Assembly: GCF_030297015.1 (NCBI RefSeq)
Contig: NZ_AP028056.1
Coordinates: 506,939-570,938, forward strand
Direction of reading: 5' to 3'
DNA from: Brooklawnia propionicigenes
Lineage (GTDB): Bacteria > Actinomycetota > Actinomycetes > Propionibacteriales > Propionibacteriaceae
Length of the DNA stretch: 64,000 nt
Part shown: positions 56,031 to 64,000 of the stretch, in pieces
Numbering within the stretch: the stretch's first letter is position 1
Layout: every line of letters begins with the position of its first letter
The notes under the pieces: generated by a model
What the model saw: only the letters and a program-made list of their open reading frames with translations
Databases searched by the model: none
Told to the model about the DNA's origin: nothing
Made by a program: the position numbers and the translations under genes

Positions 56031-58199
56031 CTAGGGATCTATCAGCTCGGCAATGGTGGTCGTCCGGCGTCTGATGATGGCTACCGCGCTCGCTGCCAGA
56101 CCGACGAGCAGCCAGAACACCAGCTGGAAGACACTGACAACCGTGCCGCTGGACCCAGTGATCAAGGAGCGCATCGCGTCCAGGGCGGGCGCCATCGGGG
56201 AGATCGCTCTCACAGTGGCGAAGACCCCCGGTATCGCATTGGTGATCATCGGCGCCATGGCCACGATCACCAGGCCTAGCGAGACGAATCGTCCGGCGCT
56301 GCCGAGCCATGCGACCAACGCATGGTTGACCGCCACAAAAGCAAGCCCGGCAAGCAGCGTGATCCCAAGCAGTCCTATCAGCGTGCCGAACGGCAGACCC
56401 ATCGCGATCTGACCGATCGCGGTGACTGCCACTGCCTGGATGCCGACCACGATCACCCCCGGCAGCATCGCCTCGGCGACCAGATAGGCCGATGGACGCG
56501 CCGAGCTCAGCAGCTGCTTGCTCAGCGCCCGCACCACCACGAAGGTGGCCATCGCCCCTGCCCACAGCGCGAGCACCATCAGCGCCGTCGCCCAACCGGT
56601 GCCCACGGTCGCGGTACCCAGCAGATTGCCCGTGGCCACCGGCGAGGAGACCACCTCCGACAGGTTCTGGCGATCCGAATCGCTGTAGGACGGGATCTGG
56701 TCCTTGCCCGCGGCAAGTCCATCGGCGAACTGGCTGGTGCCATCGGCCAGCTGTGCCCCGCCGTCGGCGAGTTGAGCCATACCGTCCGCCAGTTGTCCGG
56801 CACCGTCGTTCAGCTGCGTCATGCCATCGCTGAGCTGCGCGGCACCATCGGCCAACTGGCTCGCACCATCAGCACTCTGCTGGATGCCGTCCACCAGCGG
56901 TGCCATTCCCGCCGCGAACTCGCTCACCCCACCCGACAGCTGTTGGGCGCCCGTCTTCAGCTCCTCGCCACCGTCGCGCAACTGAGTCAAGGTATCCAAG
57001 ACGTTGATACCGCCTTCGGGAAGCTGGACGCCGGCCAGTTGATCCGGCAGCGCGTCCAGTGTCTCGATAACCGGACCGAGGGTGTCGTCGGCGCGCACCT
57101 GGTTCATTGTGTCGTTGGCACTGCCGATACCGAGCCGGATCGCCTCGTAGTACGAATCGCAGCCACCTTCCACGGCCTGCAGGTCCGGCGGGCAGGGGAA
57201 TCGCCGCGCGAGTTCGTCCCTGCTCATGTCATTGAGGGCCTCCAACTGGGCGACACCGTCCTGCACCTGCCGCATCGTCGCGACCGCCTGGTCCAGGCCC
57301 TCCTGGTCGCCCGAGATCCGCTGGACGATCTCCACCAGCTGCGGGTAGTCGGCGAGCACATCGATCGCGGGGTCGACGATCTGATTGATTCCATCGACAT
57401 ACTGCCCGACACCGTCGGACAGTTGCGCTGAGCCGTCGGCCAGCTGAGCGGCACCATCGGGCAGGGCCGCCACCGAACCGGCCATGGTGTTCAGGCCGCC
57501 GGCCAGCTGGGATGTTCCGCCGGAAAGCTGTGCCGCGCCGTCCGCCGCCTGCCCGACGCCGGCGGCGAGCTGCCCCGCGCCGCCGGCGCTCTGGTTGAGA
57601 CCATCGGCCAGCTGCGCACTGCCCTCGGCCAGTTGAGAGGCAGCATCGGCCATCGTGACGAACTGCTCCCCCATCTGATTGAAGCCGATGTAGATCTGAT
57701 CGAGATAGGCCGTCGTCAGCGTTCCATTGAGCACCCGGGCCGCTTCCTGAGCGACCACCTTGCCCAGCGTGGCATCGGCGATGCCGGCGACCGGCGAGGT
57801 CTCCACCTGGATCGTCGCTTGGTGTGCGTCGGCCGCGGGCCCTGCATATGAGGTTGCGGCCGCCGAGAACTCCTGCGGGATGACCACCATCGCCGCGTAC
57901 TTGCCGGTCTTGAGGCCGGCCCGGGCGCCGTCCAGCGTCGCCTGCTCCCAGGCCAGGTTCTGCACTCGGTCCGAGTCGACCAGTGCTGCGGTGAGCTGGC
58001 GTCCCATCGGAACGATCTGCCCGGCCAGCTCGACCGCCTCGTCCTGATTCACCACCGCTGCCCGTACGGTGTCGAGCCGCTGGTCGCTGCTCCAGGTCGC
58101 CCACAGCAGTCCGCCGAGCACCAGCACCGGAACCAGGATCAGGCCCAGCCAGGTCGTCCAGCGGCTCGGTTTGGCGGCGTTCACTCGTTCGATGGTCAT
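56031..58199 (-). CDS. YhgE/Pip-family membrane protein with heptad rods
   Basis: The 722-aa protein has one N-terminal helix (residues 17-37), an extracytoplasmic region and about five C-terminal helices (from about 530). The outer region contains two blocks of seven-residue repeats of the type QLADGAA (about 188-272 and 405-500), predicted to form helical rods, and a Cys pair (FPCPPDLQAVEGGC) that may be a disulfide. This matches YhgE/Pip (phage infection protein) membrane proteins, which often partner ABC- or MMPL-type exporters. Its ATG overlaps the MMPL stop (ATGA), so the two are coupled. Confidence 0.9.
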   Translation of the reverse strand: MTIERVNAAKPSRWTTWLGLILVPVLVLGGLLWATWSSDQRLDTVRAAVVNQDEAVELAGQIVPMGRQLTAALVDSDRVQNLAWEQATLDGARAGLKTGKYAAMVVIPQEFSAAATSYAGPAADAHQATIQVETSPVAGIADATLGKVVAQEAARVLNGTLTTAYLDQIYIGFNQMGEQFVTMADAASQLAEGSAQLADGLNQSAGGAGQLAAGVGQAADGAAQLSGGTSQLAGGLNTMAGSVAALPDGAAQLADGSAQLSDGVGQYVDGINQIVDPAIDVLADYPQLVEIVQRISGDQEGLDQAVATMRQVQDGVAQLEALNDMSRDELARRFPCPPDLQAVEGGCDSYYEAIRLGIGSANDTMNQVRADDTLGPVIETLDALPDQLAGVQLPEGGINVLDTLTQLRDGGEELKTGAQQLSGGVSEFAAGMAPLVDGIQQSADGASQLADGAAQLSDGMTQLNDGAGQLADGMAQLADGGAQLADGTSQFADGLAAGKDQIPSYSDSDRQNLSEVVSSPVATGNLLGTATVGTGWATALMVLALWAGAMATFVVVRALSKQLLSSARPSAYLVAEAMLPGVIVVGIQAVAVTAIGQIAMGLPFGTLIGLLGITLLAGLAFVAVNHALVAWLGSAGRFVSLGLVIVAMAPMITNAIPGVFATVRAISPMAPALDAMRSLITGSSGTVVSVFQLVFWLLVGLAASAVAIIRRRTTTIAELIDP

Positions 58200-60889
58200 C
58201 GCACTACTCCTCCAGCAAGCGCCGCGAGTTGTGGGCTGAGCCGCAGCACGCGGTAGTCGCCCGGCAGATAGCTCTCGGGGTCGGTCCCGGGCCCCACACC
58301 CAGCACCCAGGTAGTCGGCGGCGCATCCTTGTCGATGGGCACCGCGAGGGCCTCGGACAGCGCCGAAAGCACCGCCCGTGGCAATTCGTCGAGCGCCGGG
58401 ACGAAAACGATTCCGCCCTTGCCACAGTCGAGTTCACCGGCAGGGTCGGCGGTCGTGGCCAGCAGCAGCGGCGCACGGGTGCGCACCAGGGAGCCCTCCT
58501 CCGGAAGGACATGACCCAGCACCTTGGCTTCGCCGTCGCTGAACCTTGCGCGGCCCGACAAACCGAACATCAACGCGAGTCGCGCCGATCGGTCGCCCTC
58601 GATGACCAGCAGCTCGCCCGGGTCGACGCTGATGTCGAGGTTCGAGAAGAGCACCCGGTCACCGCTCGCAGCCAGCAGCCGCTCGGCGTGGATCGCCGAG
58701 GCATCGTCGGACGAAGGCCACGCCGCGAGTTTGGTCTGGTGGGCGAGCGCCTCGCCCTCGACATCGATCACCGGCAGCCTGCGGTCCAGCCAGGCCGGCA
58801 GCCACCAGACCCGGGAACCGGCCAGCTTCATCAGGGCGGGGCCGAGCGTCATCCTCACCAAGAAGGCGTCGATGGCGACACCGAGAGCCAGGCCGAGCGC
58901 AATCGGTTTGATGGCACCGATGCCGGTGGGCACGAAGAAAATGAAGACCGACACCATGATCAGCGCCGCGGCGATCACGACTTTGGACGAGTGGACGAAG
59001 CCGTCCTCGATCCAGCTGCGGTTGCCGTGCATGTACTCCTCGCGCATCCGGGAGGTCAGGAAGACCTCGTAGTCCATGGCAAGGCCGAACAGAATGCCCA
59101 TCAGAATGATCGGCAGAAAACTGATGATCGGTCCGGGTTCGCTGAGATTGATCAACGAAGCCCCGACACCGTCATTGAAAACCACGGTGACCAGCCCGAA
59201 CGCGGCCAGCACGCTGAGCAGGTAGCCGACCGCGGCCTTGATCGGCACCACGATGGATCGGAAGGCCATCATCAGCAGGATCAGCGACAGGCCGACCACG
59301 AACAGACCGAAGGGCAGCAACGCGGCACCCAGCTTGGCCGTGATGTCGATCTGCACGGCGACCAGTCCGGTGACCGCGGTATCGACACCGTACTCGTCCA
59401 GCCAGTGCTGGTGCTGGTTGCGCAGATTGTGCACCAGATCGGCCGTAGCGGGGTCATCGGGCCCGGTGGTCGGGATGACCTGGATCATGGCGGTGTCGGC
59501 GTTGGCGTTGGGTACGGCCGCCGCCACCATCTCGACGCCGTCCATCGCCTCCACCTCGGCGCGCATGCCGTCGAGGATCGCCATCGGGTCATTGGATTCG
59601 ACGATCGATCCGGTGATCACCAGCGGGCCATTGAATCCGATCCCGAACTCCCGGCTGACCAGGTCGAACGCTACCCGGTCGGGCGCGCCTACCGACGAAC
59701 GGCCGGAGTTGGGCAGCGCCATTTCGATATTGCGGGCGGGCAGAGCGAGCGTACCCAGGCCCACCACGACGATCAGAACCGTTACCAGCGGCCATCTGGT
59801 GACCACGCGCACCCACCACCGTGCCAGCCGTCCGGGCCTGCGATTTTCCAGCCGACGTGCCTTGCGGGCGCCGGGGCGCAGCCGGTCGCCGAGGAGTCCG
59901 AGCAGCGCAGGCAGCAGGGTGAGCGCGAGACAGACCTCGATCCCCACACCGACCGCGGTGAACATGCCCATGACCGACAGGAACGGCAGTCCGACGATAC
60001 TCAGGCCGACCAGGGCGATGATGACGGTCAGGCCGGCGAAGACCACCGCGGACCCACTGGTCGCGACGGCCCGGGCAGCGGACTCCTGGGCGTCCATGCC
60101 CTTGAGCAGCTGGTCGCGGTGCCTGGAGATGATGAACAAGGAGTAGTCGATGCCGACCGCGAGGCACAGCATCACCACGAGGATCAGCGCGGTCGAACTC
60201 ACCGTGGTGATGCCCGCCGCGATCATCACGATGCACACCGCGATGCCCACCCCGATCAGCGCCGAGACGATCGGCATGAAGGCGGCCAGCAGCCCCAGGA
60301 CAGCGGTCAGCACGATGATCGCCACCAGCACGCCGAGCCCGTCGACCACGGAGATGTGAGGCATCTCGACCGAGAAGACGTCGCCGCCCACCGCCACGGT
60401 CGAACCGGGCAGCAACTCGGTGATCTTCTGGGCGGCATCGGTGAGTTCGGCGCGCTGCTCGTCGGTGAACGTGGAGGTCGAACCTTCCACCAGCACGCGC
60501 ACCAGGGCGTGCGAGCCGTCGTCCGAGACGAGGCCCTTGACGTAGTCGCTGTACGGGAGTTGGACACCCTTGACGAAGTCGAGATCGCTGTCGAGGAAGT
60601 CGACGTACGACTCCATCGCCTGACGTGCTTGGTCCGAGTCGATCCGGGTACCGTCCGGCGCCCCGACGACGATCGTGGCCGAAGCATCGGCGGCTTCGGG
60701 GAAGGTGACCGACAGCATCTCGAGGGCGCGCCCCGAACTCGATCCGGGAATGGTGAAAGTGTCGTCGAAGGCACCGCCGATGGTCAGCGCGAGAACGCCG
60801 AACAGTGCCAGCAGTGCGAGCCAGATCGCCAGCACGCGGCCTCCGAGCCGGAAACAGGCGCGTCCCAGGCGGTACAAGAATGCTGACAC
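58196..60889 (-). CDS. MMPL/RND transporter with degenerate ABC ATPase-like C-terminal domain
   Basis: This 897-aa protein has two RND halves of about six helices with large extracytoplasmic loops. The proton-relay Asp-Tyr pairs of MmpL proteins are visible in LAVGIDYSLFIISRHRD and FGLAMDYEVFLTSRMRE. After the last helix (about residue 690) residues about 735-885 resemble an ABC ATPase start, LLAASGDRVLFSNLDISVDP then GELLVIEGDRSARLALMFGL and DGEAKVLGH, but the GxxGxGKS loop is lost. The start is GTG 60889 with GGGAG 8 nt upstream. Two palindromes in the upstream gap suggest repression by the divergent TetR protein. Substrate unknown; lipids or envelope compounds are likely. Confidence 0.88.
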   Translation of the reverse strand: MSAFLYRLGRACFRLGGRVLAIWLALLALFGVLALTIGGAFDDTFTIPGSSSGRALEMLSVTFPEAADASATIVVGAPDGTRIDSDQARQAMESYVDFLDSDLDFVKGVQLPYSDYVKGLVSDDGSHALVRVLVEGSTSTFTDEQRAELTDAAQKITELLPGSTVAVGGDVFSVEMPHISVVDGLGVLVAIIVLTAVLGLLAAFMPIVSALIGVGIAVCIVMIAAGITTVSSTALILVVMLCLAVGIDYSLFIISRHRDQLLKGMDAQESAARAVATSGSAVVFAGLTVIIALVGLSIVGLPFLSVMGMFTAVGVGIEVCLALTLLPALLGLLGDRLRPGARKARRLENRRPGRLARWWVRVVTRWPLVTVLIVVVGLGTLALPARNIEMALPNSGRSSVGAPDRVAFDLVSREFGIGFNGPLVITGSIVESNDPMAILDGMRAEVEAMDGVEMVAAAVPNANADTAMIQVIPTTGPDDPATADLVHNLRNQHQHWLDEYGVDTAVTGLVAVQIDITAKLGAALLPFGLFVVGLSLILLMMAFRSIVVPIKAAVGYLLSVLAAFGLVTVVFNDGVGASLINLSEPGPIISFLPIILMGILFGLAMDYEVFLTSRMREEYMHGNRSWIEDGFVHSSKVVIAAALIMVSVFIFFVPTGIGAIKPIALGLALGVAIDAFLVRMTLGPALMKLAGSRVWWLPAWLDRRLPVIDVEGEALAHQTKLAAWPSSDDASAIHAERLLAASGDRVLFSNLDISVDPGELLVIEGDRSARLALMFGLSGRARFSDGEAKVLGHVLPEEGSLVRTRAPLLLATTADPAGELDCGKGGIVFVPALDELPRAVLSALSEALAVPIDKDAPPTTWVLGVGPGTDPESYLPGDYRVLRLSPQLAALAGGVVR

Positions 60890-60915
60890 TGATGCTCTCC
60901 CATCGACCGAGCTCC

Positions 60916-60948
60916 GATACGGAAGTGTATCCGATACATCTTTGTATC
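60916..60948. promoter_or_regulatory. Tandem palindromic TetR operator GATAC-N6-GTATC (x2)
   Basis: GATAC-GGAAGT-GTATC (60916-60931) and GATAC-ATCTTT-GTATC (60933-60948) are two identical-armed palindromes with a 17-bp period, centred in the 109-bp gap between the divergent MMPL and tetR starts. They very probably bind the TetR-family regulator and control both directions. Confidence 0.82.
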
Positions 60949-60998
60949 CGCGCGCCGCGGCGTCCGATAGACTGATGGGGCCAACCAGCGGAGGAACC

Positions 60999-61631
60999 AT
61001 GACGGCAACGGCACCGATGAGCACCAAGCGCGCCCAGACGCAGGACAGGCTGATGGACGCCGCCACTGCCCTGTTCGCCGAGAAGGGTGTGCTCGCTGCC
61101 TCGGTCGAGGAGATCTGCGAGCGGGCGGGATTCACCCGGGGAGCGTTCTATTCCAACTTCGAATCCAAGGACGAACTCCTGCTCGCCGTCGTGCAGCGCA
61201 AGCGTGAGGCGATCCTGAAAGCGGCCACCGACGCCATCGATTCGATTCCCGACGAGCCCATCGAGCCGCAGACGCTGGACGAGATCATCAAGCAGGCGCT
61301 GCTGATCTTCCAGGCAACCCATCCGATCGACGAGCAATGGCTGCTCGCCCGCAGCGAGATCCGGCTGCATGCCCTGCGCAACCCCTCGGTGCGCCAGGCC
61401 GTCCGGCTGGTCGACAGCAGCCTGGACGAACTGCTGATCGAGGCGATCCAGGCCGTGGTGGACCGGCATGGAGTCGTCATGACCGTGCCGCCCGGGCAAC
61501 TGGTCATCTTGCTGACCGCCTATCAGGAGGCGCTGGCAACCAGCGCCATGCTCACCGGTGAGAACAGCTTCGAGCCTCTGATCGCCGAGCGTTCGGCACA
61601 ACTCATCCGCGCGCTGCTCCGGATCAGCTGA
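60999..61631 (+). CDS. TetR-family transcriptional regulator
   Basis: The 210-aa protein has the TetR helix-turn-helix (RLMDAATALFAEKGVLAASVEEICERAGFTRGAFYSNFESKDEL, residues about 17-60) and a C-terminal ligand-binding domain. GGAGGAACC is right before the ATG. It diverges from the MMPL-YhgE operon over two tandem palindromes, so local repression of the exporter and itself is the natural model. The inducer is unknown. Confidence 0.93.
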   Translation: MTATAPMSTKRAQTQDRLMDAATALFAEKGVLAASVEEICERAGFTRGAFYSNFESKDELLLAVVQRKREAILKAATDAIDSIPDEPIEPQTLDEIIKQALLIFQATHPIDEQWLLARSEIRLHALRNPSVRQAVRLVDSSLDELLIEAIQAVVDRHGVVMTVPPGQLVILLTAYQEALATSAMLTGENSFEPLIAERSAQLIRALLRIS

Positions 61632-61762
61632 CCGGGGACGCCGGCCCGCGACCGTATGGCCTGACCTTTTCCCTCGGATCCGCTCCTGGGCTCAGACAGC
61701 TGACTAGTCTTCTCAGTGGGCACACAGCCACGCCTAGAGGCAACGCGACCAGGAGGACGATG

Positions 61763-62536
61763 ATGTCAGCCCGCGCTCGAGTGGACACGGTTGCGCAGCC
61801 AGGCCGAGGCGCGATCCAGGTGGGACCGCCGCCCGCCACGAGCAGCCCCCGGCACCGTCATCGGCTGCCGTCGTGGGCGCTGAAGGTCACCATGGCGGTC
61901 ACCGGTGTCGTCTGGGCGGCCTTCGTCGCTATTCATCTGTTCGGCAATCTCAAGATCTTCCAGGGCCCTGAGGCCTACAACCACTACGCGCACTGGTTGC
62001 GCGAGGCGTTCTATCCGCTGATGCCCAAGCAGTCGGTGCTGCTGGCCATGCGTGCTGTGCTCGGGGCCGCCCTGCTGATGCATGTGGGCTGCGCAGCCAT
62101 CATCTGGCGGCGTGGACGCCAGGCCCGTGGCACTCACCGGGTGAAGATTCGCGGGCCGCGGGCCTGGGGTGCCCGGTTGATGCCGGTCACCGGCATCCTC
62201 ATTTTGTGCTTCATCGCGCTGCATGTGCTCGATCTCACGCTCGGCTGGGGCGTGCAGTCGTCCGGCTTCAGCCAAGCCACCGCAGACGAGAGCTTCGCCT
62301 ATCAGAACCTGGTGGCGAGCTTCCAGCGTCCGCAGATGGCGATCTTCTACAGCGCGCTGATGGCGGTGCTGGCCATCCATGTGGCGAAGGGATTTACCAC
62401 GGTGGCCTCCGATCTGGGTGCCATGGGTCACCGCTGGCGAGCGACGCTCGCCGTCATCGGCGGACTGCTGGCAGTGGCGATCCTGATCGGCAACGGAGCA
62501 ATACCGGTGCTGGTGCTGACGGGAGTGATCTCATGA
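61763..62536 (+). CDS. sdhC: Succinate dehydrogenase cytochrome b subunit
   Basis: The 257-aa membrane protein has five hydrophobic segments and several heme-ligand candidate His residues (FVAIHLFGNLKIF, LLMHVGCAAI, IALHVLDLTLGW, LAIHVAKGF), fitting the diheme cytochrome b558 type found with SdhA/SdhB in Gram-positives. AGGAGG is 6 nt before ATG 61763; an ATG one codon earlier is possible but too close. Its stop overlaps the sdhA ATG. In propionibacteria this complex can run as fumarate reductase in the propionate pathway. Confidence 0.93.
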   Translation: MSARARVDTVAQPGRGAIQVGPPPATSSPRHRHRLPSWALKVTMAVTGVVWAAFVAIHLFGNLKIFQGPEAYNHYAHWLREAFYPLMPKQSVLLAMRAVLGAALLMHVGCAAIIWRRGRQARGTHRVKIRGPRAWGARLMPVTGILILCFIALHVLDLTLGWGVQSSGFSQATADESFAYQNLVASFQRPQMAIFYSALMAVLAIHVAKGFTTVASDLGAMGHRWRATLAVIGGLLAVAILIGNGAIPVLVLTGVIS

Positions 62537-64000
62537 CGTTGGGCAATAGGGTCCGCGACCAGCTCGGACGAATCACCAGCCGCACCCCCGCCGACACGTC
62601 CGTCTTCGTCGCACCCGCGAGCACGGTCCCCGGGGCGCGAGTCGGATACGACCTCGACGGCCGGGTTCCCGCCGGCGATCCGTCGACCGCCTGGGACCGG
62701 CGGCGAGCCGAGTACAAGCTGGTCAGCCCCCTCAACACCAAGAAGATGACCGTCGTGGTGGTGGGCACCGGATTGGCCGGTTCGGGCGCGGCGGCCGCCC
62801 TGGGCGAACTCGGTTACGACGTGCACGCCTTCACTTACCACGACGCCGCTCGCCGCGCACACTCGGTGGCCGCGCAAGGTGGCATCAACTCGGCCCGTGC
62901 CAAGAAGGTGGACGGTGACTCGCTGCAGCGATTCGTCACCGACACCGTCAAGGGTGGCGATTTCCGGGCACGTGAGGCCGACGCGTTCCGGCTCGGCGCC
63001 CAGTCGGTGCGGGTGATCGACCACATGAATGCCATCGGCGCGCCGTTCGCCCGCGAATACGGGGGCACCCTGGCCACCCGGTCGTTCGGCGGCGTGCAGG
63101 TCTCGCGGACCTACTACACCCGCGGCCAGACCGGCCAGCAGTTGCAGGTCGCCGGCGCCCAGGCCCTGCAGCGCCAGGTCGCCCGCGGCACGGTCAAGCT
63201 GCACACTCGCACCGAGATGCTCGACCTGATCGTCGATGCCGGCGTCTGCCGGGGCGTGGTGGTGCGTGATCTGGTCTCCGGCCAGGTGTGGGCGCAACCG
63301 GCGCATGCCGTCATCTTGGCCAGCGGCGGCTACGGATCGGTCTACTTCCACTCGACGCTGGCGATGAACTGCAACGCATCGGCATCATGGCGGGCCTGTC
63401 GGCACGGCGCCTTCCTGGCGAATCCGTCGTTCGTGCAGTTCCATCCGACCGCCCTGCCGATCTCGAGCCACTGGCAATCCAAGACCATTCTGATGTCCGA
63501 ATCGCTGCGCAACGACGGACGCATCTGGGTGCCGAAAACCCCGGGCGATTCCCGTCCGGCCGGCAAGATCCCCGACAAGGACCGGGATTACTATCTGGAA
63601 CGCAAGTATCCGGCGTTCGGAAATCTGGCGCCTCGCGATATCTCGTCGCGCGCCGCGAAGGAGCAGATCGATTCCGGTCATGGCGTCGGCCCGCTGTCGA
63701 ACTCGGTCTACCTGGATTTCTCCGATGCACTGCATTCCCTCGGACGCGAGGCGATCGCGCAGCGCTACGGCAATCTTTTCGAGATGTATGAACGGGCGAC
63801 CGGCGAAGACCCGTATGTCGTGCCGATGCGCATTGCTCCTGGTGCACATTTCACCATGGGTGGCCTGTGGAGCGATTTCAACCAGATGACCGCGCTGCCC
63901 GGGCTTTTCGTCGGCGGGGAGGTCGGTTGGGCCTATCACGGCGCGAACCGGCTCGGTGCCAACTCGTTGCTGTCGGCCTGTGTGGACGGCTGGTTCACGC
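62533..64000 (+). CDS. sdhA: Succinate dehydrogenase/fumarate reductase flavoprotein, N-terminal part
   Basis: The open frame from ATG 62533 to the window end (489 codons) encodes the FAD subunit: VVVVGTGLAGSGAAAALGEL (FAD-binding), RRAHSVAAQGGIN with the His that carries covalent FAD, VQFHPTAL, and GLFVGGEVGWAYHGANRLGANSL near the end. A 75-residue N-terminal extension precedes the FAD domain, usual for this subtype. It oxidises succinate to fumarate or the reverse. It overlaps sdhC by 4 nt (ATGA). The C-terminus and sdhB should lie beyond the window. Confidence 0.95.
   Translation, partial: MTLGNRVRDQLGRITSRTPADTSVFVAPASTVPGARVGYDLDGRVPAGDPSTAWDRRRAEYKLVSPLNTKKMTVVVVGTGLAGSGAAAALGELGYDVHAFTYHDAARRAHSVAAQGGINSARAKKVDGDSLQRFVTDTVKGGDFRAREADAFRLGAQSVRVIDHMNAIGAPFAREYGGTLATRSFGGVQVSRTYYTRGQTGQQLQVAGAQALQRQVARGTVKLHTRTEMLDLIVDAGVCRGVVVRDLVSGQVWAQPAHAVILASGGYGSVYFHSTLAMNCNASASWRACRHGAFLANPSFVQFHPTALPISSHWQSKTILMSESLRNDGRIWVPKTPGDSRPAGKIPDKDRDYYLERKYPAFGNLAPRDISSRAAKEQIDSGHGVGPLSNSVYLDFSDALHSLGREAIAQRYGNLFEMYERATGEDPYVVPMRIAPGAHFTMGGLWSDFNQMTALPGLFVGGEVGWAYHGANRLGANSLLSACVDGWFT

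Follow-up and report, generated by a model that had tools for sequence, protein, structure and literature searches.

The stretch of DNA analysed here (the window) comprises 64,000 nucleotides of Brooklawnia propionicigenes (contig NZ_AP028056.1) and encodes, on its minus strand, an RND/MMPL transporter with an additional C-terminal tail. The tail is predicted to adopt the fold of ABC nucleotide-binding domains (NBDs) without their catalytic motifs. Its nearest kin are NBD proteins associated with YhgE/Pip, and a YhgE/Pip gene lies directly downstream of the pump gene. We lean slightly towards the explanation that the protein is an MMPL/RND exporter with an acquired, degenerate NBD serving as an adaptor to YhgE/Pip.

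The pump gene (58196..60889) is an open reading frame (ORF) of 897 amino acids (aa) from a GTG at 60889 to the stop at 58196 on the minus strand, identified by Pfam and NCBIfam profile matches. Two stretches of it match the Pfam model MMPL (PF03176) with 271.4 bits against a cut-off of 20.5, which bears out the assignment of this ORF in the first-pass annotation. The RND/MMPL part corresponds to residues 1–712 (58754..60889, minus strand), based on Pfam and the alignment of fused proteins. Two Asp-Tyr pairs, D248-Y249 and D606-Y607, are invariant across the alignment of 52 fused proteins. We take them to be the proton-relay positions, as in MmpL3, and from their invariance proton drive is expected. 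The two RND halves, the Asp-Tyr pairs and the domain architecture are common to MMPL/RND exporters (TIGR00833, MmpL3, HAE3). Unlike these, the window pump has an NBD-like C-terminal domain, which lies outside the MMPL/RND models searched, and it scores under the curated NCBIfam cut-offs of the MmpL3 and ActII models. An open frame of 885 residues antisense to the pump gene (58229–60886, plus strand) looks like a shadow ORF of high-GC DNA.

The tail (residues 713–897; 58199..58753, minus strand, as are all positions in it) begins with a linker containing a conserved W-P, followed by the NBD-like domain. Searched alone, it matches no Pfam model at E 1 and gives only weak ABC matches in NCBIfam, such as CcmA (E 1.8e-4, 21.1 bits, cut-off 195). 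Among 41 family tails, six match the Pfam model ABC_tran at E ≤ 0.1, the best at 7.8e-7. The predicted structure is a confident fold and aligns to ABC NBDs over tail residues 17–176. Fold prediction, structure comparison and spacer counts place the NBD core, which is without the helical subdomain, at residues 729–888 (58226..58705). The first-pass annotation had likened the tail to the first third of an ABC ATPase. This needs correction, because the structural match covers nearly the whole tail and the gap is internal: the helical subdomain, and with it LSGGQ, is missing from the stretch that would link the Q-loop region to the Walker B place. The distance from the Q-loop Arg to the Walker B place is 28 residues in the window tail vs. 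84–105 in 26 stand-alone kin, as measured in a MAFFT alignment; spacer lengths from alignment to a short profile were rejected, being wrong for some full-size domains.

The Walker A motif GxxGxGK[ST] is not present in the window tail. Its place is taken by EGDRSARL (residues 764–771; 58577..58600), as the first-pass annotation had it and as the alignment confirms, with Arg 770 at the Lys position. The Walker B place is IVFVPALDEL (residues 827–836; 58382..58411); its Asp is not present, and Pro stands in that position. On the Q-loop side of the domain, a conserved stretch G-x-x-K-V-x-G-x-x-L-P-x-x-x-x-x-V-R is found at residues 786–805 (58475..58534). The earlier idea of a pseudo-ATPase fused to an RND pump is thus supported as a reading of the sequence and of the predicted fold, which is that of an ABC NBD lacking catalytic motifs.

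The nearest kin of the tail were found with a tail profile made from 41 of 60 fetched same-family tails. In the class-wide search, the best-scoring non-fused rows are stand-alone NBD proteins. Twenty stretches with such hits, hand-picked from the class-wide list and holding 21 of the 40 non-fused rows to E 4e-12, have YhgE/Pip adjoining the hit in 20 of 20, one stretch twice. No RND gene of the fused-pump family was found in these 20 stretches. A PF00005 search of the window's genome gives 89 places. The best non-self match of the tail profile (150 of 157 candidates scored) is a 283-aa NBD adjoining the only other YhgE gene, with 44.7 bits; the next has 28.4. By PF00005 the same protein ranks 88th, with 31.2 bits against a cut-off of 25. 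Its P-loop is intact (GDEGSGKS) and LSGGQ is absent. This stand-alone NBD and its YhgE/Pip neighbour, whose ORFs overlap, make up a second, unfused pair in the genome at about 155.7–158.7 kb (L276:2697-5733). The stand-alone YhgE-associated NBDs of L146–L165 mostly contain GSGRT or similar, with Arg for the Walker A Lys, and are without LSGGQ and the catalytic Glu. Judging from these motifs, the stand-alone proteins could possibly be a pseudo-ATPase clade in their own right.

The partner gene, missed in the first-pass annotation, encodes a YhgE/Pip protein of 722 aa (56031..58199, minus strand), and its start overlaps the pump stop by 4 bases. It scores 107.4 bits with the N-terminal model TIGR03061 (cut-off 96.15), exceeds the cut-off of PF12698 (ABC2_membrane_3), and contains nine xxxLxxG repeat stretches. 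The N-terminal model, ABC2_membrane_3 and heptad stalk repeats are shared with YhgE/Pip proteins (TIGR03061/TIGR03062; kin of Pip, YueB and EsaA), and the N-terminal model of EsaA matches it at E 2.2e-13. It differs from them in the score with the C-terminal model TIGR03062, 70.6 bits (E 1.3e-19), below the cut-off of 102.2. Elsewhere, L288–L293 each have two tandem YhgE/Pip genes with no NBD-like protein adjacent, which suggests an NBD-free arrangement.

The architecture is not peculiar to one protein. In the same family, 116 of 147 genomes match the tail at E 1e-5, counting the window's own genome and species and using a query that reaches a few residues into the pump end. The match lies within an open frame of at least 772 residues in 111 of these 116. 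Stretches were fetched from 60 of the 116; all 60 contain matches to the pump and YhgE/Pip, and 52 contain a TetR-like match. The fusion is also found beyond Propionibacteriaceae. All 20 further fusions, hand-picked from the class-wide list, have YhgE/Pip. A scan of named genomes gave at least 80 loci; among those listed, 73 have a tail of at least 140 residues together with YhgE, and 5 have neither, two loci at contig ends (L224, L243) being set aside. These 73 are classed by length, and 70 of them match the tail profile (all except L198, L228 and L235). The carriers include Propionibacterium, Cutibacterium avidum, Microbacterium, Bifidobacterium, Brevibacterium, Amycolatopsis, Nocardioides and Dermabacter. 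YhgE homology starts no more than 600 bases downstream, with its strand unchanged, in 59 of 60 same-family, 20 of 20 class-wide and 72 of 73 named loci, sets that overlap one another; in the two exceptions a broken frame runs on.

Unfused relatives of the pump from the class sample served as a control. No separate YhgE ORF is found in any of 40 such stretches. These were hand-picked to exclude known fusions, so that the missing tail reflects the selection and the missing YhgE is the sole finding. The protein continues for at most 52 residues past the RND part in 38 of them and has an unrelated extension in two. In L314 and L315, the unfused MMPL proteins end in another kind of C-terminal extension, about 155 residues long, which does not match the tail profile. 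Three genomes carry both kinds of pump (fused L140 and L145 with YhgE vs. unfused L320 and L335 without it, plus the window's genome). In the window's genome the unfused pump lies at 2,945 kb, far from both YhgE genes (157 and 564 kb).

Some wider searches did not extend this picture. A class-wide tally of 200 out of 296 genomes (tail profile, E 1e-6, at most 11 candidates scored per genome) was rejected as a count of fusions, because ordinary ABC ATPases score too. The phylum-wide search with the tail profile hit 9 of 198 genomes at E 1e-12 and revealed, by frame length, no new fusion besides the window. On plasmids, P0001 matches 251 records, and in the ten rows listed the match is confined to the RND part, ending at residue 717–732; a stand-alone NBD matches four records, weakly. 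Three loci (L051, L198 and L228) have broken frames in the tail. An apparent pump-tail-YhgE read-through of 1876 aa (L051:2760-8387) was rejected as a fusion because the frame changes inside the tail.

To compare motif states, 175 of 186 domains (149 fused and 26 stand-alone) were kept once duplicates, tails shorter than 140 aa and domains with X residues had been removed. The 149 distinct fused domains contain GK[ST] in 15, GR[ST] in one and neither in 133, and the 26 stand-alone domains contain GR[ST] in 22, GK[ST] in two and neither in two. The Walker A Lys position is occupied by Arg in 109 and Lys in 18 of the 175. L198 and L228 were excluded from the tree states, the size counts and the full-size motif check. 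Among 143 fused proteins, 113 domains are short without a P-loop, 14 full-size without it, 10 short with Lys, 5 full-size with Lys and one short with Arg. P-loop loss and size loss are each seen without the other.

The NBD fold of the tail is shared with ABC ATPases of the ABC-2 type (NodI and DrrA, also CcmA). Among the relatives of the tail, the full-size fused L141 hits NodI (E 1.6e-13) and the stand-alone L146 hits DrrA (E 1.3e-13). Unlike ABC ATPases, none of 45 full-size domains (26 stand-alone and 19 fused) has LSGGQ or a Glu after the Walker B Asp place, and a switch-region His, with the region crudely taken, is seen in four. These facts indicate that the catalytic parts were lost, or had never been there, before the domain shrank. 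The window tail is further without the P-loop, the Walker B Asp and the helical subdomain, and no NBD match of the family reaches its NCBIfam cut-off.

A tree was inferred from the RND part of 84 of the 143 fused pumps (thinned at 72% identity) and the first 14 of 45 unfused pumps (thinned at 60%). It was made by a quick method, and 26 of 95 inner branches are drawn open for weak support. One branch, with an SH-aLRT value of 100, separates the fused from the unfused pumps. The fewest changes on the tree are one for fusion, two for domain size and five for the P-loop, counts that do not separate loss from gain. The simplest reading is one fusion followed by repeated loss of the P-loop.

The tail remains under constraint. 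Its ratio of nonsynonymous to synonymous substitution rates (dN/dS) is 0.12–0.50 in 14 of 14 pairs vs. 0.09–0.33 for the pump; several pairs share a row, and dS reaches 1.8. In 117 short tails without a P-loop, Arg occupies column 68 in 117, Gly column 67 in 113, Pro column 84 in 112 and Arg column 91 in 111, and the linker Trp is present in 113. Three segments of these tails carry the most information, about 2.1 bits each: the linker helix, the helix that follows the lost P-loop, and the strand on the Q-loop side. Walker B comes next with 1.6 bits, then the Walker A loop with 1.18, and four other segments have lower values. Purifying selection and the conserved columns indicate that the domain is kept, apparently not as an ATPase.

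In the explanation that we slightly favour, a proton-driven MMPL/RND exporter gained, probably once and long ago, an NBD-like partner of the ABC-2-permease-like YhgE/Pip as a C-terminal domain. In most sampled lineages, including that of the window, this domain would then have lost the P-loop and the helical subdomain. The core that it retains is G-R after the P-loop helix and LP..VR on the Q-loop side. The tail most likely no longer hydrolyses ATP. In RND proteins the C-terminus after the twelfth transmembrane helix is cytosolic, so an NBD there would meet an ABC-2-like permease. The tail is probably a cytosolic adaptor docking on the ABC-2-like membrane part of YhgE/Pip. Such docking would hold YhgE/Pip to the RND pump, and proton-driven export and the long extracytoplasmic stalk of YhgE/Pip might act together. 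The fold, the motif loss, the clade of fused pumps, the gene neighbourhood, the relation to YhgE-associated NBDs and the purifying selection come from computation; docking, a complex, the end of ATPase activity, the energy source, the transport direction and an ancestral P-loop are inferred. This proposed role is more specific than the regulatory or scaffold function suggested in the first-pass annotation, given the link of the fusion with a YhgE/Pip gene downstream and the closeness of the tail to NBDs that accompany YhgE/Pip.

Several facts weigh against the adaptor explanation. GK[ST] is retained in the 15 fused domains counted above. The first-branching fused group, nine rows of Microbacteriaceae type, is full-size without the P-loop, so the tree alone gives no ancestor with a P-loop; such an ancestor is suggested by the stand-alone kin. 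The fusion is dispensable, since no match is found in 31 of 147 same-family genomes, the window's own genus accounting for at least four of these. Of the 14 pairs, nine have a higher dN/dS in the tail than in the pump, three a lower one and two the same. Across 113 loci, the correlation of tail and YhgE distances given the RND part is 0.19, less than the 0.29 of the tail-TetR control, and specific co-evolution of tail and YhgE was therefore rejected. An NBD-like protein is adjacent in 10 of 20 YhgE-centred loci and absent in the other 10, including six tandem YhgE pairs, which indicates that some YhgE proteins manage without one. Besides, a part of the classical docking groove is lost along with the helical subdomain.

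A bolder form of the adaptor explanation, which we regard as possible if doubtful, is a hybrid of two transporter superfamilies: YhgE/Pip might have swapped its ATP motor for the proton-driven RND pump, with the dead NBD as the physical joint. In that case, transport work on an ABC-like permease would draw its energy from the proton gradient. Alternatively, the tail could be a sensor: it would bind a nucleotide or another ligand without hydrolysing it and so gate the RND pump, YhgE being merely co-expressed. The Lys or Arg that occupies the Walker A Lys position of most rows, the GSGKT kept by some fused forms and the constraint on the domain fit a sensor. The window tail, however, has neither the glycine loop nor the Walker B Asp, and in short tails without a P-loop the Walker A loop holds 1.18 bits vs. 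2.13 and 2.09 in the next two segments, though four others are lower still; the link to YhgE is also left unexplained. We consider a sensor unlikely.

The tail might instead serve the RND part only, in stability, oligomerisation or positioning, with the tie to YhgE an inherited operon order. This would accord with the conserved linker Trp and with tail-YhgE co-evolution not exceeding the control. It is quite improbable in our view, given that unfused relatives are viable without the domain (being chosen as unfused, they count only in this respect) and that the stand-alone kin of the tail adjoin YhgE with no fused-family RND gene. That the tail is an inert ABC ATPase remnant on its way out, as repeated P-loop loss, loss of the helical subdomain, the higher dN/dS in nine pairs and the three broken frames could imply, is very improbable in view of the absence of internal stops among the matches listed from 116 genomes, the dN/dS range, the invariant Arg of column 68 and the confident fold prediction.

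RND and ABC exporters are regarded as distinct superfamilies, each with its own energy source. The parts described here are of known kinds, and the hybrid is undescribed as far as searched. In keeping with the first-pass annotation, no described family was found: no Pfam or NCBIfam model dedicated to the tail or to its stand-alone relatives turned up, and general ABC models match some. Among the matches listed from open-licence literature, with subscription papers and preprints outside the search, neither the fusion nor an RND partner for YhgE/Pip is described. Here a domain of the ABC engine type is covalently joined to a pump expected to be proton-driven, within a single clade that spans many actinobacterial families, and ATP chemistry would have been lost repeatedly while the fold and the partner gene stay. 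The stand-alone NBD, the full-size fusions with and without a P-loop and the shrunken ones with and without it form a natural series for testing a change of transporter energy source. YhgE/Pip proteins are known chiefly as phage receptors and type VII secretion kin, and the fusion might offer a first functional handle on them.

A TetR-family regulator of 210 aa from the chosen start (60999..61631, plus strand) is divergent from the pump gene. Between the two genes lies an imperfect palindrome (60911..60953) with arms of 21 nucleotides, 71% complementary, which is a candidate TetR operator. Past the TetR gene, succinate dehydrogenase/fumarate reductase-like genes (61760–63999, plus strand) are seen, judged by reading the translation. 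One paper names a YhgE/Pip gene as a recombination hotspot, a matter unrelated to the fusion (PMC12584985).
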